Shown here: positions 13,662 to 42,595 of the stretch, one piece after another
How positions within the stretch are numbered: position 1 is the stretch's first letter
Layout of the letters: each line of letters starts with the position of its first letter
NCBI GenBank assembly: GCA_963971285.1
Contig: OZ020253.1
Span: 15,822,528 to 15,886,527, forward strand
Reading direction: 5' to 3'
DNA: 64,000 nt
Origin: Astropecten irregularis
Taxonomy: Eukaryota > Echinodermata > Asteroidea > Paxillosida > Astropectinidae
Position numbers and translations under genes: made by a program
The notes under the pieces: generated by a model
The model's database searches: none
The model's input: only the letters and a program-made list of their open reading frames with translations
What the model was told of the DNA's origin: nothing

Positions 13662-13740
13662 ATGGCTCCAAGGGTATCTTGCCATGCCGGCCAAGCAGTA
13701 CAGTCATCAGTCTTACTTATCCTGTTGTTAGTAAACCAAG
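13662..13740 (+). other. Phosphatase gene: first coding exon, signal peptide
   Basis: Encodes Met-Ala-Pro-Arg, a short polar stretch and the hydrophobic core SSVLLILLLVNQG, ending in phase 1 at GTAAGT. The start context CAATCATGG has G at +4. A separate leader here argues that the phosphatase is its own gene, not an alternative 3' end of the kinase gene. Confidence 0.88.
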
Positions 13741-16700
13741 GTAAGTTAATTGATTATTTCAAAATGGATGCTTACCCGGAAGTACATCCCAGTACATGTA
13801 GGCCATTCGCTTGCTTCTCCATTCTCTCGAGTTGGCACGGTATCATTGATTTAGCCCATTTATATGATTTGATTTTTAGAAACACGTTCAGCAGCAAGGC
13901 ATACCAAAATGCACAATGCACAATGTTTGCCGTCATATACACCAATGACATAATAACGCAGATGCAATTAAAAAAAAAAAAAAAGTCTATGTTTATCTGG
14001 AACAGAACATAGGGCTTTTCCCGCAACTTTTTTTTTGAATTGAATTATGTATCTGCAACATTTAATCCAAATATGTAGGCCTATGTGTCGCAAAGAAAGA
14101 CCATCCTCGATATATGGTCCTAGTTCTTACCTTTGAATAGGGAGGTACTTCCTGTTTGACCGGACGTAGAGGTCACAGAGGTCAAGCAATGTGTCAAAAA
14201 GATAGACCCTGCCTAACATTGACTTTTGGTGAAAGAATCGTGATCCTAGCTCTTACCACATTCATGCCTAATTTAATGGCCCCATGATTTTACATCGATT
14301 CTGCATTTCACTACACTACAGGTGTGTCCTTAGATGTACGAAACAAACCAGCCATTACCAGTTCATCACCTCCTGATGTTCGATACGTTCCAAGCAAGTC
14401 AGTCGATGGAAACTTTGGGACCTTTTCACACAATGGTAAGCCGTTTGATTTCCCAAGTGAACACATGGTATGATAAACCCTATTTCAAACTTGAGTCAGC
14501 TTTATAATATATCTGAAAAATCAAGGTGAGTCAAACGGAATGCATTACCAGTGAGGAAGGGAAGCCCTTAAAAATCCGACCAAACCAAAATAACATCCTT
14601 ATGTATGATGTGCATTTGTACTAGAATTGTGTATGTGACTAAAATGTGACCAAAATGGCGAGTGCTCATATCAGGTTTGTTTTGTATACAATTATAAAAA
14701 TTGTAGTGATGAATGAAACAGATACAATTAGGCCTATGTAATAATTTCTTTTGAAGATACATTAGCATAACAACGAATGAAACACCTCGATCCGAGATTT
14801 GATTAGATAAATACCAATTCAATAGATCATCAAATAACCACAAGGGAAACTGACTGAATTTTAAAGTCATTGAAAAGTGAACAAAGAAAAAATGACTGGA
14901 GCGGGATTCGAACAGGCGACCTCCTGAATACCGTACAGGCGCTCTACCAACTGAGCCATCCAGCCAATTTCTTTGTTCACTTTTCAATTAAATATATCAT
15001 TACAATTAACATCCCTACAATCGAATTTCATTTCATTTTATTTTCATTTCATTTATTGCAACTTGATCTAATTTAATCTAAGCTGCAATTCATTATCTGA
15101 TCAGAGTGGAACCAAGAGGAGAACGCACGGAACCCATGGTGGAGAGTGGACCTTGAGGCCATCTACTGCTTGAGACGAATTACTATCATTAACAGACTGC
15201 AACATGAGAATATCGGTAAGATCACCTACGAGGTTTCAGTTATTACCATGTTTAATTAAAAAAAAAAGCAAAATAGGTCTACATACCTTAGAGTAGCAAT
15301 TAATATTAATGACTAAATATCCACTGATAAAACGTTTTCCCAGTGGATTGTAACCCAGAAAAATCACCCGCCCCTCCCCTCCCCTTATGCAGAGCTAAAC
15401 TACCTCGTGCAATTACCTAATATCCATACCCGTGGCAATAACACATTGGGAGGAACCCACACGCCCCACAAAATCATATTTTGGTGTATTATGTTGTCTC
15501 CGCAGCTAACCGGTTAGCAGGTGGCATAGTACGCGCTGGATTGAACTCAGATCACTCACTCAATCCAATGGTAGGATCTCCAATCACAATGGATCAAGTC
15601 AGCAGTTTTAATAATGTTATTGATTTCATACTTGACTCGATCGTCACCGCTCGTTATGTGAGTGTGGAATTACCTGGTGATGGTAGATATCTTACCCCGG
15701 CTGAGGTCATTGTGGAGGAAGCCATAGACGAAGAAGCTACGGCATCAACAGGTGAGTGTTCATGTCGTCTAATGTTTCATTTACTTATCGAAACGCACAA
15801 CCCTCAGTGAATATCTTACTTTAGGGTTTTTACGCCGAACTACAACCTCTAAATGTAAGTCAACTACAGTCGTCATGATGATGCAAGCACCATCTTTTAA
15901 TGGTAAATGCCTCAAACAAACGTCTTTTTCCTATTGGCTTTTGTGGATAAATGCATTAATAAACACAAGTTCCCCCAAACAACCTAGATCCACCATAAAT
16001 CCATCACAAAAGACACCAAGATTTAGTTCATTTCTATATAAATTTCTAATGCTTTGATAACCTAACGATCATAAAAGTTTGACATTTTACAAATTGCATA
16101 ATGCCAAAAGGCAGAGACATACTTTTGTAGCGTACCGAAACAGAAATCTTCACAGATATACCTATTACTAACAGGGTATAAAGACGGTAGAAACATACCA
16201 TTAAAAATTTTCTGCCTCAAAAATTGGGCACCGTATGGGACTGGAATTTTCACAATCATGAATGTTACTGTATCTTCCTTGATATGTTTGGCCATGAATC
16301 TGTATTTCTTCGACAAAACCCAAAAGTATGATATTAGCTTTAAACATCAACAAACATCTTGTTTAACAAGCGATCATCGATCAGCGATTATAGTTGAAAA
16401 GCTTAATTTGGAATAGTGTGAGCATCACTGCTCTAGTACCCATCAACAAAAATGTATGAATTACGTGTCGATGCAAGTTTGGTAAATAGAAATGGTAAAT
16501 ACAAAGCGATGGTATTCTTTCTAAAAAAAAAAACCGACATATCATTCTTATTTAAAAAAAAAAATAATGGCTTCAAACTTACAGATGTGATGGACGAAAC
16601 TATATTACCTGTGATGTTCTACGATAAATTGGTTCAGTTTATCGTGGAAGAACAGTCTCTTCATTTATGGAGATAGGGCCTCGGGTTTTTCCATATTCAG

Positions 16701-19700
16701 ATACACTTGGCCCATTTTCCAAATTTCAACATTAATTTTTACGCTCAAACAATTCGTGTAAAAAATATTTGTCATTGTTATTGAAATAATACTTCATTTG
16801 TACAACTGTACAGCAATTATAATGCAATACTTTGCATTCCCACTCAGGCTTACCTCTGACCGGAAGCGCCGCTATGCAAAGTTCAACGTTGGGTTCACAG
16901 TGGGCTGCATCGAACGCCGTGGACAGAGCTTTCCAGTATGACGATCCACACTGCAGCCAAACAAGTAAACAAAACATTAATGTAATCATCAAATAACCAC
17001 TAGGAAAACTAACTGAAATTTTAACAAAGAAAAATTGACTGGAGGGATGGATGGCTCAGTTGATAGAGCATTTGTACGGTATTCAGGAGTTCGCCGGTTC
17101 GAATCCCGCTCCAGTCAATATTTCTTTGTTCAATTTTCAATGAAAATAATTACTGTGCAGAAACAGATCTAGGCCTTTAGATCTTTACATATTTAAGTTA
17201 CTTAGATCACTGGGGTTGACTTACATATTTTTTTCTAAAATAAATTAAATGATTCATTTAAAACTATTTACAATTCTAAGATCTAGGGCATTAAACATAA
17301 GCTGTAATTTTATGGCTATATACTCATATTACTCGTGGCACGACAAACGATGCAGGTGCGGAGTATCATAAACAAAACAAATGAGAACAATTCTACTGAA
17401 ACAAACTGTAAAATATCCATGGGAAAAGAGCTTAATTCCAGCGGCGTTTGACGATTGGTTGACGATTTGAAAATTGTAAAACTGTATTCCTATAATTATG
17501 TCAAATAAGAGGCTAATGTGGTGTACTACGACGCTGTGCATATTTCAAATGGATTTGCATTTTTAATGAATCGAAATTTTTTCTTTCATGGTTGATTTCC
17601 CCAAAACAGAATCTTGTAATATAAATCATAATATCTTTTTTCTGTTAGGGGCGGAAAACTACCCGTGGTGGAGGCTCGACCTCATGTCTAATCAGTGTGT
17701 GAGAAAAATCACAATCAAGACCAGAGATGCATTAAATAGTAAGTATATGATATAATCTGGAGAAATTTACAAGAACCCACTACACTTCGAACTGTATTTA
17801 AATACTTCTTAAGGATAGCGGGCTTGCATATTGAAAGCCCACACCGGTAAGACTGTTACAGATATCAACAGTTTTATAGAGACGTTTCCACTGGTGGTTA
17901 TAATTATGGTTTGACTGGATTATAGTTTTTACGAGCATCGGTTGAAAAAACACGTTTGCATAAACTCAAAAACGAGAATTAAAATCCTCCAATACTTCGT
18001 ATGATTTCTCAGTAAACGATAGGTACCGATTCAGGGGAGCTGTTGTACGAGCCGGTAACAGCACTACGGTTACCAATAACATGATGTGTGGGAGTCCAGT
18101 TACCAAGTATCAAGCTGTAGCCAATAACTGGATGGAGTTTGCCTGTAACTCGCCTGATGGGGTGATTGCTCGCTATGTCAGCGTTGATATCCCAGGAAGA
18201 GACAAACAGCTTGCACTGTGTGAGGTACTCGTCACATCTTGTGATCAACCCGAAGGTAAAATACAAGCTTAGTTGATACAACTTGCAATTCTTAATAATT
18301 TATACTAATACAAATGAGTTCTGTGAAATCAATTTCAATGTGAATGTTTCTACGTATTAATTGTCACCAGTGGATTATACGGTTGTCACCAATCCCGCCC
18401 TCATCGGTCAGACTGGAGACAATGATGCAGTCATTGCTGTATACAGAGGCCCTACTGAAATATCAGCTGATGTCTCATTCGGTCGTCAATTGATGACTGG
18501 AGGGACAAATCCTGGACTTCCTCAGGGATCATCAGAGACACTCGACCAAATGTGTGAATCCAGACAACTTCAAATGCCAGCCGCAGGTGGAATAGACAGA
18601 ATAGGTGTCTTCTACTTTCAAGCAATAACATATGAGAAGACCATCAGGATTCAGACTGTCATTTTGCCTAGGGAAGGTGAGATTCTGGTAGTATATGTTT
18701 AAGGGTCAGTTATGTCATTGAATGTTTTCTGATGAAGATCTCCCAAAAAAGAATAACGATGCAACGAATAAGGAGTGGCTGCCATACATACACCCTTACC
18801 GGCGGTGTTTATTCCTCCACAAAATATCTCAACCCTTCTGGCAATGACAGTTCATCTTGATGAATTTAGCATCGTCTCTCATAGATAAGTTATATGAAAA
18901 GATATGAACCGGGATGACGGATGGTTTTAGCAAAGTAGCAGAGAAATCTAGAATGACTTTTCCAGTAGGCGTACCCTTGTGGACCACATTGCTATTTCAA
19001 TGCTTGTTGTGTAGTATCAAATGTATTGCTAATTTTTCTACAATGCTGCTTACTTTCTTACGCGTTCATGCTCAGAATAATAATCCGATAGCAATAATTA
19101 ATCATCATCTTGTAAGATGGTATTGTACTTTACTGCATTTAACTTTCTAATTGTCATAGCAGGCAGCAATGTCATACGACCGTCCCAGCGGACCCAAGTA
19201 GCTAATATCGGAGACTCTTTGACTTTGGTAATGCAAGATCCGAACTATTTATCGTCAAACAACTACATATGGAGGCATAAAGGAGGGAATATCATTACAA
19301 CTGGGAACAACCCGCTCAGCTTGACCATCGATAGCGTTACTTCATCAGATGAAGGAATATACACCTGCTTCGTTTCCAACAATGAGAACCAACAACACAT
19401 TGGCATCACACGGCTCATTGTGAGAGGTGAGGTTCAATGTACGCATCACTAAATCATACTGTACATTGCTGTATGACTCTCTTTCGACTTCTTGTGTGTT
19501 TCACGTTTTTCCTCATTATATACTTTTGGTTGTGTTTTCCCCTGGAAATAAACCCTGTTTACTCTGACTAGAATGTTCTGAAAACATGTGGGGACCCCCA
19601 TCGTGTATGAAAACCTGTCGTCGATGCTACAATGGAGGAATCTGTGATGACAAGACTGGGAAGTGTATCTGCGCTCCAGGATTCAGTGAAAATCACTGTG

Positions 19701-22700
19701 ATCGAGGTAAATAGGACAATGTAATCTTATATTATTTTGTTTTGACAGGACCACTCAATTCTCAGTTACTTTGTTTCTTAAATATGCGAAACAATCATGT
19801 GCAAAATCGTGCAAACAGATTCTGCTATTGCTTAAACACAATTTATATTAAAGCGTACAATTAACGCTATATCGTACACTTTGCGTTTAGATTTGAACAT
19901 TTTTCAAATTGTTTACAGTACACGGCCGAAACATTTTTGGTCAAAATGGTGGTCAGCATTGCTCAGCTGACTCTGGTGATCCACACTCCAACGCTTGCCA
20001 GGGTCGATTATTCTGCCTTCCTGATCCGTATGGCTGCTCCTGTGCTGCTGGCTATATGGGACTAGACTGCATGCAAGGTGATGCCTTATAAAGGGACTCA
20101 ATTGTTCCATCAGTTACTCAAAATGAATTATCGGAGTTGGTAGAAATTCTAGAAGTTCAAACTGTCCATCAGGCAAAATATGTATAATTAACACTTAAGC
20201 AACGTTTTCAGGGGGAAAGGTGCTGTCAATATAATTGAAGAAAAAATACTAAGCTCGATCGGTCAGTTTCATTTAAGTAATTTCGTTTGTTAGTTATATC
20301 GCATTTTCAGACAGGTGTCAAATATGATTAATCAATACAACAGAATGTACTGAAGGGACGTATGGAGCTGACTGTAAGCAGACATGTCATTGTGCAGCAG
20401 GTAGCACCTGTAGTAAAGATACTGGTGAATGTAGCGATGGCACATGTGAATCGCCATACATCGGGAACAATTGCCAGTGTTCAAGTAAGTGTGTCTCCAA
20501 TTATTAGAGGGAAAATTGGAATTGAAATTGTGTTATCCTACTTTAACCAAATGTGGATTTAATTCTACCCAAAGTAATTCTTTCGAATAACAAACAACTG
20601 TGGCCACTGTTTATGTCTTTTATCATCAGAGACAACCTTACTATACATCCGATTGTTGATTTAGATTCGGTTTATTGTTCTTATTCCCCAAAAATGCAGT
20701 TGAAGGCGTAAGTGTCACCCCAATGCAGCGCAGCCTTAATTTTGTTTGGAGTAGACCACCATGTGAAGCACAAGTATACATTGTATCGTACACGTACAAG
20801 CTGACGGATGTAGCTGCTGATATGGTGCTATCGCCACAAAATTTTACAGAAAATTATGTTACCGTCCAAAGCCTGATACCATACACTCAGTACAGCTTTC
20901 AAGTTGCTGCTATCACCAGTAAGGGGACGTTGCTGTATAGTGAAGCCGTGACTACTTTGACGGTAGAATCAGGTTTGTTGATTCTGTTTGGAATAGTCAA
21001 ACACGCCATAAAGATCAGATATAGGTAAAACAAATTCCCTGAATTGTAATTATCTTTTGTTGTTGGCTTGGTTCGTTGTCAATACATGTATATTGCAAAA
21101 TTTTACGAAGAACAAGCCTGGCATCTACAGTCCTATTGTAAACGGATGTTAATTAATTGTTAATCGAATTGTTTTACAGAGCCCACGGTCCCCCTTAATG
21201 TGATCATCCTGGACACTGATGAAGAGTCTATTACGGTGCAGTGGGCGAAGCCCAATCCTCCACATGGGAACATTACCAACTACGACATCGCTTACTGGGA
21301 AACTGGAAGTGAATCGACACGACTTGAAATGACTGATATTGGCATCGGGAGATTATTTCATCAGATCAGTCCACTCACACTAAATGTCACCTATTCTTTC
21401 CAGGTAACCCTGTCACTTACGACTGTTTACAATATGAATTCCTTTGATCTTAACCAAAGTATAATCTTAGTTTCTAGATTTAATAAATACAGACTGTATG
21501 ACAGGTAACATTACAACGGAATAAAATGTTTTTATATTTCAACATTGGACAGGTGCGAGCCAAGACAGTTGTAGGTGTGGGTCCATGGAGTGAAAATGTC
21601 ACAGCAACCGTTGTTGGAGGTAATTAAAAGGGGAGACCCCCTTCATAAATTACCTGCAATATTTTATCTGATAATTGATATCTAGTAATGCTAAGTGATT
21701 TGAAGTACCTCAACCACAAAGGTAATTGTTATTATGTGCATTTATAAAAAGGACATCTCACCAGCACGTACGTACGGACCTACTCTAAAATGTATTTTGG
21801 AAAAGAAATGGGCACCTTTCATAATGGCACAGGGAAGAAATCAGTCAGACAAATGTTAATAAGAAAAAAAAGTTGAGCACGATAGTGACTACGCAAAAGA
21901 GATGCTTCACTGGTTGGTTACAAAATACGTACAAGAAAGTCAACGAAGGAAATGTTTGTCATTAAGAGGCTGCCCCTCTTTAAAAAGCTTGAAAGACAGA
22001 GGCCATTCGAATCCATCCAAACCTATATTTTCCCAAAGACCCCCATCTTGTCATGATAAAATCCACAATACATTGACCTTTAGTAAATACATGGGAAATC
22101 ATTTTTCATTTAGTCGTTGTTTTTTGGTTCAGTTCCTGGAGTTATCCTGAATCTTCGCTGGACAGAGAGAACTGAAGACTCACTAACTTTAGACTGGGAC
22201 CCACCACTGATTCTAAATGGACCAATACCCAGTTACGTGGTAAGTTGAGCAAATAGAAGAAAGGGAGAATAATTATAGAAGAGCTCCTAGCAGGAGACGA
22301 TAATATTTATTCCACTCATTATTTTCCTTTTACAAGGTGGAGTACAAAGCCCTGATAAAACCGCATCAACCGGATTTCATGCCTAAGGACAACTACAAGG
22401 AGGAAGAAGTTGACAATGCACCATTTACGAAAAAAGATCTCGAGCCAGGCACCAAGTATGGGTTCAGAGTTTCTGCAAAGAATACTCGTCATACCGGAGA
22501 TTTCGCAGCTCTGGAGGTGTATACAAGACCACTTATGGGTGAGGCGCCTAATTATATATCGCTTGCTTAAATTGAGCAAATTCCACTATAGATCGTGTTT
22601 AATCAGTAAATTTGCATCATTCTGGGCCGGGTTCAAACCAAATCCAAGCCGTGATTGTTTAAAAACTTGAAATGCATGTGGCTACAAATTTATAGAGTAA

Positions 22701-25700
22701 CTCGAATGGCTTAGACAGATCGCAACATGCGTATCAATCAATCTTAATTGACATAAGCTAGTTTGATGTCACAATACATACTAGCTGCTACAGAAACATG
22801 AACAAGGGTATACTCAATTAATCATATAAAAGATGACTCGCAAATCTTAGTAAAATCAACCACTGGTCAGCAAATCCCCGGACATGCAGCAGCAACTTCA
22901 CTAGAAAAGGATTGGGTGCAGCAGTTTTTCTTCTTTAAATGATAGCCTTACGAATTTTTGCATGTATGGATGGAGAGTGAAAGAAAATGCTCATCTTGTG
23001 AGTCTGATATCAAACGCCACATTATGATAGACGTCGGATCGGATTGTATGTCAAAGTCACTGTATAATGTGCTGTTTTACATCATTATTGTTCCTTTGTT
23101 CTTTTATGTTCTCCTTGTCCTTCCTTTTTTTTTTTTCATTTTGTTTATGCTTTTGCTTTTCAGAATCACCGAAGGTTGGCAGCCCGATAGGGATGGTGGT
23201 GGGGATCGTTTGTGCTGCCCTCATTCTTATCATCGTTGTGATTGTAGTCGTTGTATTCCGCAAAAGGTATATAACCAATAACCTCTGTTTACAAACGATT
23301 GAAACAACGTTCCCATGGCAAATTGCTCAAAGTGTGTAAAGTACATGAGTTGTAGACGAGAAATTGATTAATCTGAGGCTATGATGAAGGTAGTAAGTAC
23401 GATTCCAGGTTCGCGGCTTTATCAGCTTCCCGGCCAGAGTCAACAAACTCATCAGAGAGATACATGTAATTGTGTTGCATGGTCCTACTGCATCTAATTA
23501 TCATATCATCTAATAATTAATGAAACACTGAAACTAACGATACATTTTCTATGTACATGTAGGAGGTCAAAGAATAGGCGGCACAACGGTGAAGCGGCAC
23601 CGCCCAAGGACATTGCCCTCGGACCGCATAGCGGAAACGCTAAATCAGGTAGGCCTATTCGTTTCCCACAAAAGCTATTCTGATGTCAGCTAAGACCTTA
23701 ATGGAGACGAAAGAAACTGAAACGTGTATGTTTTAGAGCGGGAAATGTCATGGGAACAAATATTTTTCGATAACAGTAACAAACACTCTCCAACCTTTGT
23801 AATCACGAAAACGGGCCTGAGCAAGTCTGCAGTTACAAGATAATTCGCAAATTGTTTGTATTTTGTGCTGAATTTGGAATCATTGTGATTCTAATTGAGT
23901 TAAGTGATGATGACCCTGATACATCGTTCCCCATTAGGTGACGAGAAGGGAGATGGAACATCTTCAGACGCGTTTGACGACCTCGAAGTGAGCGTCACGA
24001 CTGTACCGACCCCGTCCCCATCGCTGGCTAAGCCCAAGCCTAGCCCGCGCAAAACTGTACCATCTAAACGGCCCGAACATGTTCCAGTTCGCGCCGATGA
24101 GCTTGCCAGTTTCATAGCAAAGAAAGAATCATCTAAAGAGTGCGAATTTCTGGCGGACTTTCAGGTAATTCTCAAGAATTCTTAATTTTGATTCTGTGGG
24201 TGATTTTACTGAAAGAAACGCCATAAATCATAAGGATGGGGAGGGGGGTCCATCTACTGGTTAGGTGCATGGATATTAAAGGCGAATGGAGCGAGAAAGC
24301 AACACGCAAACTGCAAAACACGGCGGAACTCTTTAGGCTGATGTAGGCCTCTATTCCGATATGTTTAATTGGTTTCAACAGAAACCATGCCAATGCAATG
24401 CAAACAAAATAAGTAATAAGAATCTTGAAGTCCTAATGTTTGATGAAATAAAGTAGCTCACACCAAGATATTTCCAGAATATAGTTATAGTTGCAAATGG
24501 GTGAGACCATCATTATCTAACCTTTCTTAATATCTCAAAGAAAAAATATGCATAAAATAAATAGATATTAAACATGCTCCAGCTAACCATAGTACATATT
24601 GGGGGTCGTGATTCTGCTAGTGGTAGTAGCCTAGTTTATAGCAAGAGTGCTTAGCACGTTAGGCTTAGCCTAAGCGGTAGTGGCAGTCTATGATATTAAC
24701 AAAAAGAACAGCATGGCTTGTGAATAATCAATGGTTGATAACACTTTATCAACACAGTAATATTTAATTTCCTATGTTATGTTAAGCCAGTCATCAGTCC
24801 GATGTTTACATGTGACACTGATGTGGTTCATCTTCATGTAGGCCTACATTTAACACGGCCTAGTGTTCAACTACCCGATGCCCACGCCCTACACATAGCG
24901 CGTTCAGTTCATTGTGTACACAACGGCAACGGGCGATATGCAAGACAACGGCATGACCGCCATTAAACATTACACTGCACTGTGTGGCCATAGGACAGAA
25001 GTTTCGAGAACCGAACATGTACTTGTAGTTAATGTTTCGACCCTGAAATTACACATGTTCGGGAACACCAACCCAACCAAAATGGTCTAAAGGGATTACT
25101 GCAGCAGCTTTTCATGGGGACTTAATAGGACATCAACCAAAAACGGCATAAACTGGGCACATTTGGGGAGAGAAAATCTTACCTTGTGACGGCTACGAGT
25201 TCGCACGGCAAAGAAGCCGCGTCGCAGCGCAGCATGCACACCGTACGCGTACCGTACACACTGTACACGTACACAAGCATGGGTGAATCGGCTATGCATA
25301 ATCATTCCGCCATTGAACAATACAGTACACCCAACGATCGTTGCTTTTAAGTTTCTAAGGATCAGTTTGAAAACATAAGCCTGTTTTCAAACTATTTGCC
25401 ATCTTTCTCGACAATGTCAAAGTCAAAAGGTTAAAATGAAAGTCTTAATTCACTATTCATTCCGCACTAATTTTTAACTCGTAAGTATACAACCCCAGCA
25501 CACACAAGTAGGTGTTTCAAATGATTATGTAAAATCACATTAATTTCCGGACGGTGGGTGTGCGTAACATTACGGACAATACATTATAAATGTGCACTGT
25601 AAATGTCGTGCCACTACATTAATTTTGTACTACAAAATCGATTACTTACGTGTGCATGTTACTGGCTTACAAAATGATCGGAACCAACAGAATAAGTTAG

Positions 25701-28700
25701 TCCTTTCTTTATTAATGGAACTATAATATTTCCCTCAGACTCTGACAGATGAGCAGCTGCATCCATGGACGGTGGCCAAGAAAGCAGAAAACAAGCCGAA
25801 GAACCGATTTGCAAACGTCATTGCCTGTGCGTATAACATACCCACATTATTGTACTCAATAATTGAGAAAAGACACAATATTATTATTGAACCCTATTGT
25901 GTCTGTTTCTTGAAGCATTTACGTTTGTTTAATGTTTGAGGTTAAGAGACAAAAGTTATAAAGCAATAAAGCATACTTTTCGGTTTCTTTACCCATGTGA
26001 TTACAGATGACCATTCCAGAGTTGTGCTGACGCCCATTGGAGACGATCCTCATTCAGATTACATTAATGCTTGCTTCATTGATGTAAGTCAACAAATCTT
26101 AATGACACTGTTCAAAATGTTGCTCTTTCATTTTGCTTCGAAAATAATCCTGCTCTAAAATAATGTTTCAAGAAATAGGACATAGAACTCTGTAAGAGTC
26201 GCAGAAAGATGTGAATATTGAAGGACAATATTTGTGTAATGAAGTTATTTGGGAATGACACCAATATCATTGACATCACCATTTGAACAGAACCCATGTC
26301 AAACGTGCATGGTGACTTCATCGACAGTAAAATGCATGCGATTCATTTTCCGGACACGAACTTGTGTTTCTTAGATTAATATTTTAACATGTAAATATTT
26401 ATTTTCTCTGCTTCATTCCCAGGGGCTTAAGGAGAAGGACAAGTATATTGCAAGCCAAGGTATCTTTATCATTGGTTTTTAAAGTATAGAGGAATTTTAA
26501 AGACAGAAAAGCACGTAAGTTTTGAGACAAGTGTGAAACATCAGTAGGCCTACAAGGATTACAAAAGAACAAAAGGAGGCCAGACAATAGAAAACCCATT
26601 AAAATTAAAGGATGCAAAAAATTGTACAGACCGGCAAACTGACCGGACAGGAAAATGTTAATCGAACAAACCAAGTTGGGTGGGTGGGGTTTAGTTTTGC
26701 TCAATATGGTTCTTTAACGCAACCTTTCATAATTTGGCTTAATCTTATAATTTTTTGTATATTGTATTTATATTCTTATATCATCAGGGACTAACAAGGC
26801 TTCTCTGAATGACATATGGCGAATGGTTTGGCAGTACAACGTGGATAAGATTGTTATGCTAACGAATCCAGTGGAAAATGGAAAGGTGAAGACAAATACT
26901 TTTTTTGCTAACATTGTGAAAGGTAATATCATACTTTGGATTTTATAAAAGAAATACAGATTCATGAGCAAAAATATCAAGACAAATACGTACAGTCACC
27001 TGTGAAAATGTCAGTCCCATGGTGCCCACTTTTTGAGAAAACAGTGAAACACAGCCACAGTATTTCTTATAAGTCTTTTCTCTTACATTGTTTACTTTTT
27101 GAAAGATCAAAAAGATTTTCGGTCGCTGTTTTACTAATTTCTGGATAAATACACCATTTCAGGCGGAAAAATTGTAACGGTACGTTTCTACCACCACAAT
27201 CTTCACACCGTGTGAGTTATAAGTAAATCTGTGAAAATTCGGTTTTGGTTTCTAACCAAAGTATGATACTACCTTTAAAATGAAATATTTTACTTATACT
27301 ATAACGACTGAACACATTCATGTTTGTAAATTTTTGATGCATTTATCTTTTTTCATAAAGGTGAAATGTCTGCAGTACTGGCCGAATAGTGGAGCAGCCA
27401 CTTTATACTCCGACATCTCTGTAACAATTGTAAATGAAGAGGTGTTTCTGGACTACTCGGTTCGCTTGTTTAAAGTGACCCAGGTACTTGTTCCATTATA
27501 CATTCTTATCCGTGTCTATATACATGTAGTACATGTAATTAGATTTTTTTCACTAAAATGATTGAAATATAACAGTTGGTTTTCTTTTGAGAAAATACAG
27601 CAATTATGTCTGCCTTTACACAGATTAACAGTGAGGAAGACTGCAGTCGACTAGTGAAGCAATTTCACTTCACCACTTGGCCGGACATGAAGCCGCCGGA
27701 ATATCCAGGTCCACTGCTGAACTTCATGAGGGTCGTAAACGCTCATCATAACGAGGGACGCACTGTGATACATTGCAGGTCAGTGGAACAGCTCTTGTAC
27801 GCCTTAAGCCCACCGCACACTATACGATCCGACATTCCGACTAGGGGACTAGGACCCGACTGGTTTTTGGAAGGATCGCAAAGCATTCTGGGAGTCTTAA
27901 CCGTGATTGTTCCCAGTCGCAGACCCACTCTGATGGCCAGTCGGCAAGATTCGACTGTCGAATCACGGTTAAGACTCCCAGAATGCTTTGCGATCCTTCC
28001 AAAAACCAGTCGGGTCGTAGTCGGATCGTATAGTGTGCGGTGGCCTTTATACACCTGAACCAAATGAAAATAATTATACCTCAAGATGTCTTTTTTAAGC
28101 ATGCTTGTTTAAATGAGGGAAATATTAGGCCCAGTGCCGGTTACTTGCAAAACATATCAGGTCAAATTTCAAACGTGTCGACAAAACTATCATAATCATG
28201 CCAAAGCAGAGGCAAATATTGCAAAGAAATATATTACAAACTTTGAAGAGAATGTACTTTGAACTTCAGTTTATTGTTCTCCCTTGTGCAATATTCCTAA
28301 ACTATATAGCAAGTTGAATTTTGACATGAAAATTCAGAAAAGGAACTGTAACACACGAAGACCACATTCGTGTGACGATTCTTTAATTCAACATTTAATA
28401 TTCAACATATTCTTTTTCGATACCTTGTGAAAAACTATGATACCTGGCGTATCCATACTAGCGGGATCTTTTCAAGGGCTATAAAATCGAATGTAGAATA
28501 CACTGTTTGTTGCATTTATAGTGCTGGAGTCGGGCGCACAGGGACATACATCGCATTGGATTCGATGCTTGAACAGATGAATGATGAAGGACAAGTTGAT
28601 GTTCTTGGTTTCATCCACCGTATGAGACAAAACCGCATCAATATGGTGCAAACTGCAGTAAGTAGGCCTACCGTATATATATCTAAATATGATGGGCTGT

Positions 28701-31700
28701 TTCACGACGAGCTAGCAGGAACAGAGAGTCCTCGTAGACGACTAACACAATATACATGGGAAAAGCTTGCCTGAATTGCTCACGTCATTCGCAAAACCAT
28801 CAACCCAAAGGCAGAACACAATTGAAACGGTGCATGATACAATGGACCTTATCGGAGATAGCCTGTTTTCCGCGCTGCGCGTGCGCGCGCAAAGGACAGT
28901 GGGTAACATTGGTTTTAAAAGTTTTACCACACGCGTCGACACGCGTATATTCGTATAGCTGCCGGCTCGCGAAGTTTAAAGTTGTCTTTTCTCCTAGAAG
29001 AAAGCCTTGCTTTGAGTTGTTATACATAACGATGCTGCACAACGGTCCATGGAATGTTACTGTCGAGTCACTTGTTCCAGCGGTGTAAAGTTAAGTACTT
29101 ATTTATAGTTGATTTTTCATGTCCATACGTTTTATGCACTCAGCGCCAGCCCTAACAACCCTGCGCACAACCAATTTTTTGGCTACTCTCCGATAAGGTC
29201 CATGGGAGACTTTTGAAAACCAGTCTTCAAGTCAACAGCGCACGCGCACGCACAACAGCGCAGGCGGAAAACAACGCGCGCATGCTCACAATTGCGTGCG
29301 TGTGCCCCGTTGACTTGAAGACCGATTCTTAAAAGTCTCCCATTGAAACTGAAGCCGAATGTACTTTCCGTCCAATATCGCGTACGCCTATCAGTTCAGC
29401 CTGCTTGTAAGTTTGGTGTCACCGATTCTGTCATCTCACTGAACTTTTGAGTAGAAAATTGGATGAAATCTAAAAACTTGGCGTCTCCGCCTGCCGACTC
29501 CATCTAGATCTCGCTCTTACACAAAAAAATTAGGCCTACAATAGTTTCTCCCATTTATAGCGACAGTAATGTTGAGGTATTTTTATGTTTTGAGTGAACT
29601 TTCTGAACTCAATACCAGTGGTAGACCTGACAGAAATGAGTCGGTAATGTGCTTTGCATTCGAAGCCACAGATAAGCAGACAACTACTGATAAGTGACTG
29701 ATGAAAGAACATTCGAATTGTTTTATATGCAACTATAATTCAAGTGAATTTCTTTGTTCTCCTTCTCTAGGACCAATACAAGTTTATCTATGACGCTTTG
29801 CTGGCTGCTCATCTGATAGGTCAAACGACCTACGATGTTACACACCTTCGACAGCAGCTGGCTGCCTTGCAAAAGATGTCAAAAGACTCCAAGGAAAGTG
29901 GCATGGACAAACAGTTCAAGGTAAAAAAATAAAAGACTGAATGTTGGCTTTCCGCTTGATATAAGAATTAAAAGCAAAAATCCAACGTGTAATAACGAAC
30001 ATGAGAACTGCACTGTATACGTCATTGTTACCCTGGTTGGTACTGCATGGTAAATATAATGTCTTATATTATTTTTTTGGGTTTTTTTTTTTTTTTTTTT
30101 CAAATGAAAAGACAAACATTTCCACCCATTCAAAGCCAAAAACAGCATTTTCCTACCGTTATTCTAAAGGTCATTAACAATAGATTTGCCCCCAAAATGC
30201 AAATTTGAATTCAAAGATTCTTCCAGCAAGCAAATTGACGGTTTTAACATTTTGTATTTTACAGACTTTGAATAAAATACCAGGGAGCTACAACAGAAAG
30301 ACCAGTAACGCTGGCAAGCTTCCTGAGAATGTGGCCAAGAACCGGTATCCGGATTTTATTCCAAGTGAGTATAAATAACTGAATATTAAAAAACAATTGT
30401 TATTGAACCAAACTTGAATCAACCAAAGCTATAGATTCATCCTAAATTTGAGTTTATTTTTATTCAGTAGTGTCATCCCAACAGTTGAATTGTCAGAGAA
30501 AGTTTTAAAAGTATATTTTCGTACCATTCAGGCTTCAGCCAAAACGTGCGTCAAAAGAACCAATATAGGCATCAGCGATCTATCTCTGTTCCCGAACCCT
30601 GATGGGCTATTTATAAGCTGTTTTTGTGGCTGTTATGAGTTTAGGTAAAAAGAACAATACTTAAACAAAATGACAATGATCGACATAAAGCATGAAGAGG
30701 GAAATTTATATAAGGTTTCCACCACTTCATCTTCCGAAGGAAATGTCATGAGAATATGCCAATGGACCATTTCAACACGTTGTTACGTAATTCTGATTAC
30801 AATATTATATTTAGCTGATCGGTCAAGACCGTTTCTGATGACTCAAGTACACGACGCTGATACCGACTACATAAATGCGTCCTTCATACCGGTATGTTGA
30901 TTTATTTTACTCATAAGCAGCAACCGATCAATTATTTTTGTAGGAATTGATGAAGAAGGTAGACACCAGCTACACCTTACATCAACCATTCTCCATTAGC
31001 AACTAAACATTTTTTTTTCACATGGAAAATATCACATGCGCACCTCCGTTTTTATAACGACGATTGTGAAAACTGTTGGAATATTGATAATATATACACC
31101 AGAGGTGGATTTCACCAAACCCATCGTAACTTACTGCAAATCGTTTTAGACTTATGATGCATTGCATGCAGTCTTATGTAGGATACGTTTAGTTATCCTT
31201 CGTAAGTCGAGTTACAATCGATCAACTTACTGCAAACATTAGTCTTTCCTCTATCTGGGAAGAAGCCATGGTTTTTACGCAAGATTTCATACAATTCAGA
31301 ATGTTAACTAAGGCGAAGTTGGTCTCTCTAGGGCTACCGCTCGAAAAACAGGTACATCGGTACGCAGATGCCCATGCCCAACACAGCTGCTGACCTGTGG
31401 CGACTGGTCTACGATCAGAAATCCACCTGTATCGTCATGCTGAACACATTTGATACAAACGATGAGGTAAGTCCAGTCCACCTACTGTCACATATCGTAA
31501 GGTCTTGTATACATGTACATAAACGAAGTTCAAATATTCATACACAAAACTGCAATGGATTAGAAATGCCACTAAATCCATTCCATGACTTTTGAGATTT
31601 TATCTAAAAATGATAAAATATGTTTCCAAACAGACCATGGCTCGCTACTGGCCAGAGGAAGAACCCATTGAATTTGGACCACTGGTTGTTGAGCCCATAA

Positions 31701-33696
31701 AGACTACAAAATACAAGGGAGTCATCTGCCGCACATTATCCCTGAGAAACAAGCTGGAAGAGGTAAAATTCTGCAATTTTTGGTTTTTAATTTACAACAA
31801 ACCGCACTCAATGGTTCACGTTTCGTTTAAAAATAATCGTCATGTGTGGTACACGTAACGATCGAGTACACACGGCTAATGATACGGATTTGATTTGATA
31901 CCACTGGTATGACTGAAGGGATACGAAGGGATACGGAGATGAAATTCGCAAAGCACGCAATAATATTTCCTCTGGTAAGAAGACATCATAATGGCTATTA
32001 ACGAACGTTTCAAAGACATACCCGAAGCACGAAGATAATAACCGAAGTCGAAGAATAAAATAGCCAGAATTGAATGCAATTACCACAGTGCGAAGATATT
32101 ATACCTATGTACCTGCTAAGAATAGCAAGATATCACAAAGGTATATGGGGTCTACGAAGAAACTATACACCGATCCGACTGCGCGAAATACCATCCGCCA
32201 TTACTGCGGTGTCCCTGCCCGCCTTTTGTGTGTAATACCTGAATCCGACTTGCGATGCGTTTAATTGGCCCCGTGGAGTATCAGGGGATAAACACCCCTG
32301 CAGTATAGAGGGCGGCAGATAGCAGAAATTCTTGTGTTGCCACTCAGTGGGCACAAAAGGCAGACGGGGATACCACAGTAATGGCGGACGGAAAGTTGTG
32401 CCGTCGGATCGGTCTATTCCAAAATGTAAGAACAAAACTTTTGAGAGAATGCTTATAACCTTCGACAATGCAAAACACAAACATTTCACTTTTGGTCCTA
32501 TTAAACTTTTGAAAGCATGCATAATTTCCATTCCAATATCTATCGTTTTGTCAGTCTGAAGCAACGACCGCGAGCTTGTTCCAATACCAAGACTGGCCGT
32601 CTGATCAAGACCTGCCCAGCTCCTGGCAAGGTATGCTGACTCTCATGGAACTCACACTGAAGTTGCACGAGGAAAAGAGCCCTATCGTGGTTCACTGCAT
32701 GTAAGTATAACAGACCTAGCTACTCTCAAAATGATGTGTAATATCCATATCGACATCCCAGAATTGTGGTGGAGCAAAGCATGTGAACTAAAACATGGAC
32801 TTGATTTTCAAAGCAACTCGGAAATATTCCTGCAAAAGGTCCAAATAAAAAGCCAAAGCGTTTTGAATTAGACAGGCTAATAAGAATAATGCATTTTGTA
32901 TAGCATTTTACATAAAAATCTTAAAACGCTTTACAATTAAAACCATCTTAACCATTACAAATTCATAAACAGTCTATAGTATTACTATTATTACTATTAC
33001 AAACAATATACCATTGATTATAACATAAGAAAAACCATTGCAGAAAATGAAGTAAATTTACAGAAAATGAAGTAAAATTTTCAGAAACATTTCTTTTAAA
33101 AAGAAACGTTTGGAGTGTAGATTACAAATTTTCATATACATTATATTGATATTTCTTCCCAGGCAACATATTTCCACGTATATAATGGGTGCGTATTAAT
33201 ATAAAATGCACGGTCACCATAGGTGGTGAGCGCTGAGGATGCCGAACCCTCGGATGATACAGTTTTACCCCTTGATATGCATCTGAAGGACGCAAAGAAA
33301 TTTCCGTTGAATTTCAGACGTTGATCGTTGCGCTGTTATCAATAAATTAATTAATTTTTCATTATTCAGAGACGGATTGGGACGCACTGTCGTCTACTGC
33401 ACTGTGATGTCCCTGCTTGAGCAGTTTCGAGAGGAAAAGGTCGTAGACGTGTTTCAAGCAGTTCTCCGCCTCCGAACAGTCAATCGCAATATGATGTATT
33501 CTTTGGTAAGATTATGTGTAATGCAATCCACATTGTAAAAGCGCTGTATAATTTATCATGTAGTTTTACCCTTTTCAATCTTGATTACGTTATAACAGTA
33601 CAACTCGCTTGTGTTATATTTTAGGATCACTATCAGATGTGTTACGAAGTCATCCAGGCGTACGTGGAAGATTCCACCATATACGAAAATGCATAG
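13662..33696 (+). CDS. Receptor tyrosine phosphatase with F5/8C and Tie-like ectodomain
   Basis: Predicted type I membrane protein that would remove phosphate from tyrosines under the control of a large ectodomain. Thirty-five exons from ATG 13662 to TAG 33694-33696 join in frame (4953 nt, about 1650 residues); exon lists are in the block entries. Order by residue: signal peptide 1-26; F5/8C domains about 27-183 and 184-333; Ig-like 334-435 and 436-523; three EGF-like modules 524-668; FN3 domains 669-759, 760-856 and 857-959; TM in 960-994; phosphatase D1 about 1099-1386; D2 about 1387-1650. Ig-EGF-FN3 is the Tie plan, and EGF module 2 contains [12 protein letters not shown], a hallmark of Tie receptors. 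The start is the first Met before a hydrophobic leader. Sea urchins are known to have lineage-specific FN3- and lectin-bearing receptor phosphatases; whether this exact architecture is described I cannot say. Confidence 0.93.
14090..14290 (-). repeat. Isolated inverted copy of the 129-bp satellite unit
   Basis: The minus strand reads GTAAGAGCTAGGATCACGAT, CTTTCACCAAAAGTCAATG and GACCTCTGTGACCTCTAC then GGTCAAACAGGAAGTA, matching the unit of the tandem array at 48280-48970. Confidence 0.75.
14322..15751 (+). other. Phosphatase gene: first F5/8C (F-type lectin-like) domain
   Basis: Exons 14322-14435, 15105-15215 and 15506-15751, all phase 1. Hallmarks of the fold: NKPAITSSS, SVDGN with an acidic metal-site neighbour, NPWWRVDLEA, CLRRITIINR and ARYVSVELPG near the end. 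These domains commonly bind fucose, other glycans or lipids. Intron 14436-15104 contains a SINE. Confidence 0.87.
14806..14988 (-). repeat. tRNA-derived SINE, full-length antisense copy
   Basis: Minus strand: GGCTGGATGGCTCAGTTGGT, B box-like GTTCGAATCCCGCTCCAG, then TTTCTTTGTTCACTTTTCAA and CAGTCAGTTTCCCTTGTGG, ending TGATCTATTGAATTGG. A second copy of TTTCTTTGTTCACTTTTCAA lies on the other side (14968-14987), so the body is flanked by inverted repeats. Confidence 0.8.
16125..16340. mobile_element. Truncated MITE (ACCAAAGTATGAT family)
   Basis: Contains AACAGAAATCTTCACAGATA, TTGGGCACCGTATGGGACTG and the right-end core CAAAAGTATGATATTAGCTT. The left terminal repeat is missing or diverged. Confidence 0.65.
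16848..18255 (+). other. Phosphatase gene: second F5/8C domain
   Basis: Exons 16848-16964 (GLPLTGSAAMQSSTLGSQW, then ASNAVDRAFQ and DDPHCSQT), 17649-17738 (YPWWRLDLMSNQCVRKITIK) and 18013-18255 (VVRAGNSTTV then CGSPVT, ARYVSVDIPG, LALCEVLVTSC), all phase 1. The exon plan matches the first F5/8C domain, so the two are probably tandem duplicates. The first exon is easy to miss because it is short and followed by a SINE. Confidence 0.87.
17043..17141 (+). repeat. tRNA-derived SINE, sense copy
   Basis: GATGGCTCAGTTGATAGAGC, GGTATTCAGGAG, GTTCGAATCCCGCTCCAG and the tail TTTCTTTGTTCAATTTTCAA. Flanked upstream by AACAAAGAAAAATTGACTGG, the inverted form of its own 3' end. Confidence 0.78.
18371..19426 (+). 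other. Phosphatase gene: two Ig-like domains, Tie-type
   Basis: Exon 18371-18676 (306 nt) encodes a domain beginning VDYTVVTNPALIGQTG and ending TIRIQTVILPREG, placed like the first Ig domain of Tie receptors; sequence alone is weak evidence for an Ig fold. Exon 19163-19426 (264 nt) encodes a clearer Ig domain: DSLTLVMQDP, YIWRHKG and the signature SSDEGIYTCFVSN, ending TRLIV just before the EGF block as in Tie2. Both exons are phase 1-1. Confidence 0.78.
19572..20484 (+). other. Phosphatase gene: three Tie-type EGF-like modules
   Basis: Three phase 1-1 exons. 19572-19706: WGPPSCMKTCRRCYNGGICD then GKCICAPGF. 19919-20077: a diverged module with [20 protein letters not shown]. 20344-20484: GTYGADCKQTCHCAAGSTCS then CQCS. 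A triple EGF block following an Ig domain, with the [12 protein letters not shown] motif in the second module, is characteristic of Tie1/Tek. The cysteine spacing looks intact. Confidence 0.88.
20700..22538 (+). other. Phosphatase gene: three FN3 domains
   Basis: FN3-1 is one exon, 20700-20972 (RSLNFVWSRPPCEAQ, YTQYSFQVAAITSKG). FN3-2 is split, 21180-21403 and 21553-21619 (ITVQWAKPNPPHGNITNYD, QVRAKTVVGVGPWS). FN3-3 is split, 22133-22239 and 22337-22538 (LTLDWDPPLILNGPIPSYV, LEPGTKYGFRVSAKN). FN3-2 and FN3-3 are exon-for-exon paralogues of the kinase gene's FN3 domains at 29-1696 and 2286-3264: 224, 67 versus 70, 107 and 202 nt. Confidence 0.92.
23164..24164 (+). other. Phosphatase gene: TM helix and cytoplasmic linker
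   Basis: Exon 23164-23266 encodes IGMVVGIVCAALILIIVVIV then VVVFRKR, a single TM helix with a basic stop. Exons 23563-23648 and 23938-24164 encode a Pro/Ser/Lys-rich linker (PTPSPSLAKPKPSPRKT) and SFIAKKESSKECEFLADFQ, the approach to D1. The linker may hold SH3-type PxxP sites. Confidence 0.9.
26925..27275. mobile_element. MITE copy in D1 intron
   Basis: Left end GGTAATATCATACTTTGG, core AAATACAGATTCATGAGC and TTTTTGAGAAAACAGTGAAA, right end ACCAAAGTATGATACTACCT. Same family as 11028 in the opposite orientation. Confidence 0.8.
27806..28048. mobile_element. Near-perfect hairpin MITE inside the P-loop intron
   Basis: The left arm begins CCACCGCACACTATACGATC and runs through GGAAGGATCGCAAAGCATTC; the right arm is its reverse complement, ending GATCGTATAGTGTGCGGTGG. 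Arms of roughly 90-115 bp surround a loop of about 30 bp, so transcripts would fold into a long hairpin. It starts about 30 bp after the donor of the exon encoding the catalytic Cys. Confidence 0.88.
28841..29203. mobile_element. Palindromic element in D1 intron
   Basis: Left end AATGGACCTTATCGGAGATA and right end CTCCGATAAGGTCCAT are inverted repeats. The interior is CpG-rich (GCGCTGCGCGTGCGCGCGC near 28872) with no gene. It abuts the next palindromic element. Confidence 0.65.
29203..29345. mobile_element. CpG-rich palindromic MITE (AATGGGAGACTTTT family)
   Basis: Terminal repeats TGGGAGACTTTTGAAAACC and TTCTTAAAAGTCTCCCATTG. Internal inverted GTCTTCAAGTCAACAG and TTGACTTGAAGACC flank alternating purine-pyrimidine sequence such as GCGCACGCGCACGCAC. 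Relatives at 34836-35001 and 62053-62605. Confidence 0.78.
30265..33696 (+). other. Phosphatase gene: degenerate domain D2 and tail
   Basis: Exons 30265-30364, 30815-30891, 31332-31466, 31634-31762, 32555-32700, 33370-33505 and 33625-33696. KNRYPDFIPTDRSR, DYINASFIPGYRSKNRYIGT and MARYWPEEEP place it as a second PTP domain. The general-acid loop reads DWPSDQDLP, lacking the catalytic Asp after Pro; the P-loop reads HCIDGLGRT, keeping the Cys-x5-Arg frame but not SAG; the Q-loop has YSLDHY in place of QTxxQY. Expect little or no catalysis, as is usual for D2. The protein ends STIYENA, a pYxN-type tail. Confidence 0.92.
32168..32413. mobile_element. Hairpin MITE in D2 intron
   Basis: Left arm ACCGATCCGACTGCGCG then ATACCATCCGCCATTACTG; right arm CAGTAATGGCGGACGGAAAG then GCCGTCGGATCGGT. 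Imperfect arms of about 60 bp with a loop containing GGGGATAAACACCCC. Confidence 0.78.
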
Positions 33697-40309: not shown

Positions 40310-42558
40310 ATGGCCAAACTCCGTAGTCCAAGAGTGTCCTTGTCGTTGTACTTGCTTTGTTTGTCTGCGTTCTTCAGTCTAACAGGTAAGTTCATAGGCT
40401 AGTCTTCCCTTGTAAGGTGTCCTTTCCTTTGGATGTTTCCTTTAAATCGAGACCGTTTGTTTAACATATACTGGATTAAGTCTGAAACGCAATCATGTAC
40501 TAAGCCTACTTCGGCAGGTATAATTTCACGGACTGATCACTGCGGGTAAAGAACGCCCCATGTACACAATAAGTGGCAACAATAATAGCTCCTGTGTTTA
40601 TTTCACTAAATATGACGTTAAGGCGACTGTTTGTACGGCAAAAAGCTATAGTATAGTTGGTGTCGCCATTATATTTTTTGTCTCAAAACCTACACAGACT
40701 TTCACTGTCAGAAATGTGATTTTCTTTTTTTCATCCTCGTAGTCCAAACCACTTTATGTAATATTTTGGATCAGCTGGTTTTCCTAACGAGGGGAAAAAG
40801 AAGGGGTTATTTCTTTTTTGTGGATTATTTTATGTTTGCACAAGACTACCTATTGACCAATGTCTCCCAAAATGTTCGCGTTCAGACCTGTCTAACATGT
40901 CTGATCCCTATTTGTGAAGATAATAATCAAAACTTTTGAAACTTAAATGCGCGTTTTTCGAAAACATGGTCCAAGTCCCATTACACTGACAACTGAAGTA
41001 TTAAAGTTGAATATAAATTATGGAATTTAGAATAATTAGGTTAAAATCTTTGGGGAGTGCTGTGGCCTAGTGGTATGGCGTGTCGAACTATTGTGGTCAA
41101 TTTACAGATCGTGGGTTCAAAACCAGCCATGGGCTAGTGGTGCTTGCGTCCTTGGGCAAGACGCTTTGTCACATAATATTGCTCCTCTTCACCCAGATGT
41201 AAATGGGTACCTGCGAGGGTTTAGGTGGCTTTGTGGTTTGATCAGCCTCTGTGCCCTTTAAAGTATTGAAATGGTTTCAGGGATGTAAATTATGGCCCAA
41301 TGACCAGGGATAATAATATGTGTGCCACGAGTGTCTTGGACAGATGTGTGCGCGGAATAAATTCCGAATTATTATTATCATAATTTTGTCAAAATCTTGT
41401 CATCCGACCTTCTGTTGCCCAAACCGCAGTATTGGAATATGTCTGTCCCACCAGCATGGAGCACAATAAGCCTTGTCATGATGTCATCAATGACGTCTCG
41501 CTTTCTTGATCTGTATAATATAAAAACTCGACATTTGTTTAGAAATAGAAATGGCAAATTTTCCAAACAGCGCTGTGGCTGCTGTAGGAACAAAGAAATC
41601 GAAACGAAACTGTTTGTGAAGGCACATATAATCACACTGGACAGCTTTCATCCATTATTGGAATGAAGAGATGCACAGTACATTGTATTTAAGAGGTCAC
41701 ATAAACAAATTACTTGTTTTTAACGTCCGCGCCCGACCCGCGATGAGGCCAACGCTGGATTAAAAAGAATATTTCTCTATTCACAAAAAAATGAAAAAAA
41801 GGTGCGGAAAACAATAAATTTATGTTTTAAAGATAATATCATAGTTTGGTTTTTGTCTAAGAAATACAGATTCATGGGCAAAAATATCAAGACAGATAAC
41901 AGTCATCTATGAAAATTTCAGTCCCTTTCGATGCCCATTTTTTGAGAAAACAGGGGGAAACGGCCACAGAATTTCTTAAGTCTTTTCTCTTTTTTTTTTG
42001 ATCTTTTAAAAGATCAAAACTATTTTTGGTCATTGTTTTACAAATTTCTGGATAAATACACCATTTCAGGCGGAAACATTTTAACGGTATAGGTTTCTAC
42101 CAGCATCATCTTCATACCCTGAACGTTATACGTAAATCTGTGAACATTTCTGTTTTGGTCTTTTACCAAAGTATGAAACTACCTTTAAAGGTATAATACA
42201 TGATTGGTAATGGTCACAGAACAGCACTTCCAGTTTTTCTGATACAATAATGTGCATGAAGAAATAGTAAACATGTGAACATTTCAGCTTAATCGGACAA
42301 CTGAGCCATGAGAAAACAGTGAAAACCCGACTCACTTGTTTCTTATAAAACATAAAGAATGGTTTTGATCTTACCCCGAATTCAAAACTGTTTTCGGTCT
42401 TTGTTTTATTAATTTCTAAATAAATACACAATTTCAGGCGGAAATATTTTAACAGTATTTTTCTATACCAGCACCATCTCCATACCCTGAAAGTTGTACG
42501 TAGGCCTAAATCTGTGAACGTATGGGCGTTTACGAAACGGAGGCTTAGGCTTAGGCTT

Positions 42559-42595
<37 letters not shown>

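Follow-up and report, generated by a model that had tools for sequence, protein, structure and literature searches.

Kinase and phosphatase genes at the locus

The window analysed here is a stretch of 64,000 nucleotides from the sea star Astropecten irregularis (C17:15822528-15886527, C17 being contig OZ020253.1), taken from a searched genome of 475.7 Mb in 168 contigs. It contains a gene for a receptor tyrosine phosphatase and, upstream of it, the 3' part of a gene for a Tie-type kinase, and the two encode closely similar recognition parts, here called the head. Both genes lie on the plus strand of this single 20.6 Mb contig with continuous reading frames. The kinase gene starts outside the window, and 40 kb of DNA 5' of the window was read as well, negative positions counting back from the window start. 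Exons of both genes were chosen by hand from splice sites and phases, and protein-domain calls were taken from Pfam. The kinase stop codon at 9835 is separated from the phosphatase ATG by 3.8 kb. A single kinase-phosphatase fusion gene was ruled out, since the kinase frame ends in a stop of its own and the phosphatase begins with a separate ATG and signal-peptide-like exon; two separate transcripts are likely, judging from the sequence. Seven poly-A hexamers were found between the genes, a number that AT-rich DNA would also give by chance.

The phosphatase gene extends from the ATG of its signal-peptide exon to the end of its stop codon (13662-33696). Its model comprises 35 exons with GT-AG internal borders and consistent phases, amounting to 1634 codons with a single terminal stop. 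The encoded protein has, in order, a signal peptide, two F5/8 type C-like (F5/8C) domains, two immunoglobulin-like domains (Ig1 and Ig2), three epidermal growth factor modules (EGF1-3), three fibronectin type III domains (FN3-1, FN3-2 and FN3-3), a transmembrane and a juxtamembrane segment, and the phosphatase domains D1 and D2. The preliminary description of this DNA had proposed an Ig, triple-EGF and FN3 ectodomain on a D1-D2 cytoplasmic part, which the gene model and Pfam bear out, but it was incomplete, as the two F5/8C domains precede the Ig domains.

Exon 1 (13662-13740; ATG, GT donor, phase 1) includes a hydrophobic stretch recognised by eye and is 42% identical to the corresponding kinase exon. 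F5/8C domain 1 (14334-15751; exons 14334-14435, 15105-15215 and 15506-15751) matches PF00754 at 2.5e-8, and domain 2 (16848-18255; exons 16848-16964, 17649-17738 and 18013-18255) matches PF22633 at 1.8e-7, both above cut-off; domain 2 also matches PF00754 at 6.5e-6, which is under that family's cut-off. An F-type (fucose-binding) lectin reading was ruled out, since what we take to be the triad pattern of such lectins, H-x(20-30)-R-x-D-x4-[RK], is absent from both proteins. Ig1 occupies a single exon in the Tie position (18371-18676), and Ig2 (19163-19426) matches Ig_3 at 3.5e-8, above cut-off, and aligns to Tie2. Assignment of EGF1-3 (19572-20484; exons 19572-19706, 19919-20077 and 20344-20484) rests on the Tie2 alignment, Pfam EGF models matching only under their cut-offs. 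The FN3 domains (20700-22538; exons 20700-20972, 21180-21403, 21553-21619, 22133-22239 and 22337-22538) match fn3 at 6e-37 in three stretches. They are followed by transmembrane and juxtamembrane exons (23164-24164; exons 23164-23266, 23563-23648 and 23938-24164) in a phase-consistent hand splice model.

D1 (25739-29920, eight exons; Y_phosphatase 1.2e-76) retains WPD, HCSAGVGRTG and KNRF. D2 (30301-33696, seven exons; Y_phosphatase 1.4e-63; stop codon 33694-33696) keeps HCIDGLGR, an HCX5R motif, and reads WPS at the WPD position, thus lacking the WPD aspartate; by its sequence D2 is probably regulatory. A D1 with WPD and HCX5R followed by a D2 is the layout of a receptor tyrosine phosphatase. 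Against the PDB, D1 scored 273 bits with RPTPalpha D1 and 220 bits with the catalytic domain of PTPRB (VE-PTP), which rules out VE-PTP kinship and agrees with the distance from that enzyme proposed earlier.

Comparison of the phosphatase Ig1-EGF3 part with the PDB gave three different Tie2 sequences at E 1e-33, with a non-Tie protein following at 6e-5; the Tie2 alignment runs from late Ig1 (query residue 79) to EGF3. Ig2-EGF1-3 is therefore more Tie-like than other solved receptors, and chance EGF/Ig likeness was ruled out. These searches support the Tie-type homology of the ectodomain put forward in the preliminary description, and its 12-residue stretch in EGF2 (exon 19919-20077) is identical in Tie2 chains of the PDB. 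An Ig1 profile of 22 loci found no Tie2 in the PDB, and Ig1-Ig2 alone gave generic Ig matches with no Tie2 among the best 60 of 136. The predicted Ig1 structure, of low confidence (predicted local distance difference test, pLDDT, 57), gave Ig-like folds in a fold search, with Tie2 at rank 5 and none at E 0.001 or better. Unspliced frames searched against Pfam yielded no family for 4 of 10 frames, including Ig1 and the final exon of both F5/8C domains, and an NCBIfam search found no families.

The kinase model comprises 30 exons that add up to 1493 codons, with a single stop and intact enzyme motifs. Its 5' part lies at -8251 to -766 (L012:1749-9234) and includes 11 recognition exons at -7645 to -1576. 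Within the window, FN3-2 and FN3-3 (29-3264; exons 29-252, 1627-1696, 2286-2392 and 3063-3264) form part of an fn3 match at 2e-43, which has three stretches including FN3-1. Between FN3-3 and the membrane lies a domain of the type found in receptor tyrosine phosphatases (RPTPs) (3568-4454; exons 3568-3664 and 4172-4454), which matches PF23144 Fn3_PTPRU at 2.2e-5, its 25.1 bits barely exceeding the cut-off of 24.7, and RPTPmu at 1.4e-4; the segment of the phosphatase from FN3 to juxtamembrane has no match to PF23144 in Pfam. The presence of such a domain in a Tie-like kinase looks as if parts had been swapped in both directions. A small exon and the transmembrane exon follow (4845-5231; exons 4845-4884 and 5077-5231), and then nine exons for the kinase domain and tail (5645-9835; PF07714 2.4e-85), with 21 motif residues present and the tail motif YANF.

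Among single-domain matches in the PDB, the kinase domain is nearest Tie2 (298 bits), followed by FGFR1 (241) and RET (240); one EGFR entry reached 352 bits summed over two matched stretches. Together with the gene model, this match upholds the earlier statement that a Tie-like kinase lies directly upstream on the same strand. The Tie receptor plan is Ig-Ig-EGF3-Ig-FN3x3. The kinase has two F5/8C domains and the membrane-proximal domain in addition, and no Ig3 exon was found between EGF3 and FN3-1 in either gene when the sequence was read by eye; its sequence thus suggests a Tie-type kinase rather than one of standard Tie plan. The intron after kinase exon 29-252 contains a minisatellite (234-1360) with a 27-bp unit in about 42 copies. 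The unit holds the end of the FN3-2 exon and the splice donor (TATCACATTCAG followed by GTATAC), and hence the donor of this exon is repeated many times in the next intron.

The head shared by kinase and phosphatase

The two genes were compared by protein identity for each exon and by synonymous divergence (dS, Nei-Gojobori). Identity is 79, 68 and 94% in the exons of F5/8C domain 1, 85, 93 and 95% in those of domain 2, 92% in Ig1, 86% in Ig2 and 87, 92 and 89% in EGF1-3. Beyond the head it falls to 35% in FN3-1, 49 and 61% in FN3-2, 47 and 51% in FN3-3, and 11% in the transmembrane exon. All 11 recognition exons are thus 68-95% identical, against 35-61% for all five FN3 exons. The same contrast is seen at synonymous sites, with dS of 0.117 over 638 head codons (F5/8C to EGF3), 2.09 in FN3-1 and 1.61 in FN3-2 to FN3-3. 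Of the 11 head introns, 5 contain local matches with 101-346 aligned bases and 78-87% identity; matches in the five introns compared after EGF3 have just 8-32 bases. The border of similarity is sharp and falls at EGF3/FN3-1. The low dS of the head and the high dS of the FN3 exons indicate that two old genes recently came to share their recognition half.

These results support the view that the phosphatase ectodomain is a paralogue of that of the neighbouring kinase, as had been noted before. The earlier emphasis on paralogous FN3 domains was right as to paralogy, but these domains show the lowest identity of any shared module. In F5/8C domain 1 (14334-15751 in the phosphatase, -7645 to -5445 in the kinase), 30.5 nonsynonymous and 3.5 synonymous differences were counted, a ratio of 2.7 for which significance was not computed.

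Related units on the chromosome

Genome searches score the best candidates only, and the family counts given here are lower bounds. With E up to 10 allowed, the Ig1 exon finds 46 matches in the genome, 44 of them on C17 and 2 on C18; on C17, 43 are at least 50% identical and one, at 9.715 Mb, is 33% identical. For the EGF2 exon there are 108 matches with E no higher than 0.1, and 52 of them lie below 1e-9 (49 on C17, 2 on C18, 1 on C29). The kinase exon gave 62 matches at E up to 0.01, and the phosphatase exon encoding the HCSAGVGRTG motif (the HC exon) gave 36. A unit was defined as an Ig1 or EGF2 module joined, where possible, to an enzyme exon by strand and distance on C17, the enzyme being the nearest downstream catalytic exon on the same strand within 32 kb; this assignment is mechanical and, except for the window pair, made without gene models. 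C17 contains 50 module-bearing units, namely 26 with kinase, 20 with phosphatase and 4 with neither, besides 21 kinase and 9 phosphatase exons with no detected module. The single pair of the preliminary description is therefore real, but as a picture it is too small, since a large family occupies the chromosome.

A cassette in which two plus-strand kinase units precede one minus-strand phosphatase unit is repeated five times between 4.75 and 5.43 Mb (kinase/kinase/phosphatase at 4.751/4.770/4.812, 4.993/5.011/5.051, 5.083/5.102/5.143, 5.265/5.286/5.334 and 5.361/5.388/5.433 Mb). A further cluster at 8.62-8.91 Mb includes 2 kinases, 6 phosphatases and one unit without an assigned enzyme.

Trees were built from the Ig1 exons of 30 loci fetched from the 46 matches (17 kinase, 12 phosphatase, 1 without assigned enzyme) and from the Ig2 exons of 28 of these loci (15, 12 and 1, respectively). 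In both trees, kinase and phosphatase heads are mixed within each of two main groups, and a single clade of phosphatases is rejected (p 1.3e-6 for Ig1, 4e-4 for Ig2). The window kinase and phosphatase are sisters in both, with support of 100 and 99. Ig1 exons of the group comprising the 8.6 Mb and window loci are only 50-56% alike to those of the group at 2.3 and 4.3-5.5 Mb, and heads are shared between kinases and phosphatases in both groups. Among the 7 copies of the HC exon in the 8.6 Mb/window group likeness is 98-100%, and it is 78% to the 9 copies of the other group; none of these 16 copies contains a stop.

Exons of one head differ in their apparent history. The window kinase and the 8.62 Mb kinase have dS of 0.038 in exon F2e3 (2 synonymous differences), 0.461 in Ig1 and 0.406 in Ig2, and the window kinase and phosphatase have 0.146, 0.101 and 0.090 in these exons, which points to tracts of different origin inside one head, although the counts are small. 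The window kinase exon encodes the same protein as that at 8.637 Mb with dS of 0.23, whereas Ig1 of the window pair has a dS of only 0.10; this kinase exon shares 59-66% identity with the 2.3/4.3-5.5 Mb copies and 59% with the copy at 8.870 Mb. For the other group, one pair was read (kinase 4.770 Mb, phosphatase 4.812 Mb); its two EGF2 sequences are 95% alike at the DNA level, and the resemblance extends past EGF3 through the apparent next two FN3 exons at 73-86% DNA identity, FN3-1 being called by a weak match and FN3-2 by eye. The border of the head therefore differs between clusters. Repeated gene conversion or exchange between kinase and phosphatase heads fits these patterns best.

Some other features were observed in the window and the genome. 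Arrays of short EGF2-like repeats lie at 6.1-6.6 Mb of C17 and at 19.41 Mb of C16, with kinase-exon matches at 6.2-6.4 Mb and 19.43 Mb, respectively, and a lone Tie-type EGF2 module of 63% identity is found off C17, at C29:6966623-6966769, with no kinase-exon match on C29. An open frame at 42518-45427 of the window, 969 amino acids from stop to stop, resembles, by eye, a receptor with several membrane passes and an extracellular part rich in cysteine, perhaps a G protein-coupled receptor of the adhesion type, and another at 55164-55646 has a WD40-like stretch, also recognised by eye. Contig C131 (L075) carries a COX1 frame of 552 amino acids without stops, and the mitochondrial copy on C168 has 10 TGA; C131 is perhaps a bacterial contaminant. 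The mitochondrial contig, C168, translates well with AAA as Asn, and in it COX1 has Ala(+), Leu(-), Asn(-) and Gln(+) tRNAs before it and ND4L and COX2 after it; these features match the echinoderm code and the sea star inversion and point to an asteroid source.

Proposed paired receptors with opposite enzymes

The window pair combines near-identical recognition parts, linked genes and outputs that are opposite by domain type only, and concerted evolution is confined to its recognition part; in the 4.770/4.812 Mb pair the likeness enters FN3. We consider it probable that the window genes are catalytic paired receptors, in which one recognition head is placed on opposite enzymes and its two versions stay alike through gene conversion or unequal exchange. 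The head would comprise two F5/8C-type, two Ig and three EGF modules, carried by a Tie-type kinase and by a receptor phosphatase, both of which would bind the same, probably multivalent, ligand through it. Clustering of kinase with kinase would produce a phosphotyrosine signal, a phosphatase drawn into the cluster or taking ligand away would damp it, and the local ratio of kinase to phosphatase would set the threshold. A shared ligand is made likelier by the identity of 92% in Ig1, 86% in Ig2 and 87-92% in the EGF modules together with the repeated sharing of heads. Like the opposed functions and a possible immune role, it is suggested here from sequence. Either competition for that ligand or co-assembly of the receptors, the two options of the preliminary description, may apply.

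Whether the approximately 50 Tie-headed units, with interchangeable gene-converted heads on kinases or opposing phosphatases and several kinase-kinase-phosphatase cassettes, make up such a paired-receptor system as a whole is in our estimate an evenly balanced question. Such a system would parallel, at the level of enzymes, the activating/inhibitory receptor clusters of vertebrates, and might act in coelomocyte immune or self/non-self recognition. In the parts of the reports consulted, SpTie1/2 of sea urchin are placed in coelomocytes and the axial organ (PMC6494969), and a Tie-2-like kinase and a receptor phosphatase of A. rubens coelomocytes are termed counterbalancing by the authors (PMC13409769); these proteins may or may not be members of the window family.

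Several observations weigh against matched heads with opposed functions. Kinase and phosphatase labels change 7 times on the Ig1 tree, against a mean of 9.5 in 500 shuffles, 28-30 of which gave as few changes, and 8 times on the Ig2 tree, against a mean of 9.1 with 148-150 of 500 as low, so that Ig1 keeps a slight clustering by enzyme, none being detectable for Ig2. Local alignments in the other 6 of 11 head introns span just 15-53 bases. The unlike FN3 stalks and the extra domain of the kinase mean that the receptors may not pack together, and the kinase:phosphatase ratio varies from 1:1 in the window to 2:6 at 8.6-8.9 Mb (plus the unit without assigned enzyme) and 2:1 in the five cassettes. 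Identical heads could also come from a recent partial tandem duplication that copied the head from gene to gene and has not yet diverged, with no selection for a match and with possibly separate functions. The sharp border at EGF3/FN3-1 and recent copies elsewhere, such as the kinase loci at 4.751 and 5.083 Mb (99.9% identical over 3321 bases), would suit such an event. It is nevertheless unlikely in view of the separate sharing of heads in two groups that differ so much in Ig1, the different border in the one pair examined of the 2.3/4.3-5.5 Mb group, and the exon-scale mosaic seen in the dS of F2e3 and Ig1.

The phosphatase might instead be a decoy, mainly a ligand sink or adhesion receptor whose enzyme does not act on the neighbouring kinase, as the missing WPD aspartate of D2 and the differing stalks would allow. 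We give this little credence as well, since D1 retains WPD and HCSAGVGRTG and the HC exon, the D1 exon read in copies, is stop-free in 16 of 16 copies of 78-100% identity, which a pure decoy would not need. That the chimera is an artefact of duplicated haplotypes or of exons wrongly joined by hand is highly improbable: the splice sites are hand-chosen and the array copies of 99.9% identity, which also count against the paired-receptor reading, could include assembly duplicates, but both genes lie 3.8 kb apart on one contig with continuous frames, and the order of a head and then a phosphatase exon is seen again in 20 of the 50 units. Catalytic pairing with matched heads thus remains the preferred reading.

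If this reading is true, a kinase and a phosphatase serve as opposed outputs of one head that has been copied dozens of times, and their balance can evolve as a unit by exchange of heads. The family would be a candidate for a large echinoderm recognition system, and one that is testable. Compared with Tie receptors (Tie1/Tek, and SpTie1/2 of sea urchin), the genes have Ig-Ig-EGF3, three FN3 domains and the 12-residue EGF2 stretch in common with them, and the kinase has a Tie-like kinase domain. On the other hand, the window kinase adds two F5/8C-type domains and the RPTP-type membrane-proximal domain, the search for a third Ig found none, and in the sister gene phosphatase domains take the place of the kinase. 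The phosphatase resembles RPTPalpha/epsilon and the LAR kind in its D1-D2 layout and D1 motifs, but differs in its Tie-type ectodomain. VE-PTP acts on Tie2 and has an unrelated FN3 ectodomain and a single catalytic domain. The proposed role is alike, a receptor phosphatase set against a Tie kinase, but the window phosphatase has two phosphatase domains and a D1 nearer RPTPalpha, and it would be an independent solution to the task that VE-PTP performs for Tie2. PTPRLec, reportedly described by Byrum in 2006, is said to be a sea urchin receptor phosphatase; a lectin-like ectodomain is implied by its name.

No paper on a receptor tyrosine kinase and a receptor phosphatase with one shared ectodomain was found among the listed results of open-access text searches, which miss most subscription papers. 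Paired activating and inhibitory receptors signal via short tyrosine-motif tails or adaptors. The nearest principle found in print is that of Siglec-11/16, opposed receptors in which, according to an excerpt of the source, gene conversion over a region containing the exon of the binding domain maintains similar binding preferences (PMC5701461). Coevolution of activating and inhibitory receptors is likewise described, in an excerpt, for the CEA family (PMC2832619). Unlike in these paired receptors, the opposed outputs would here be a kinase and a phosphatase within the receptors themselves. In Botryllus FF/FcoR allorecognition, opposed outputs are also exchanged behind one recognition family, but the exchange occurs by alternative splicing of ITIM/hemITAM motifs, and the available excerpt mentions no enzyme domains (PMC12065747).

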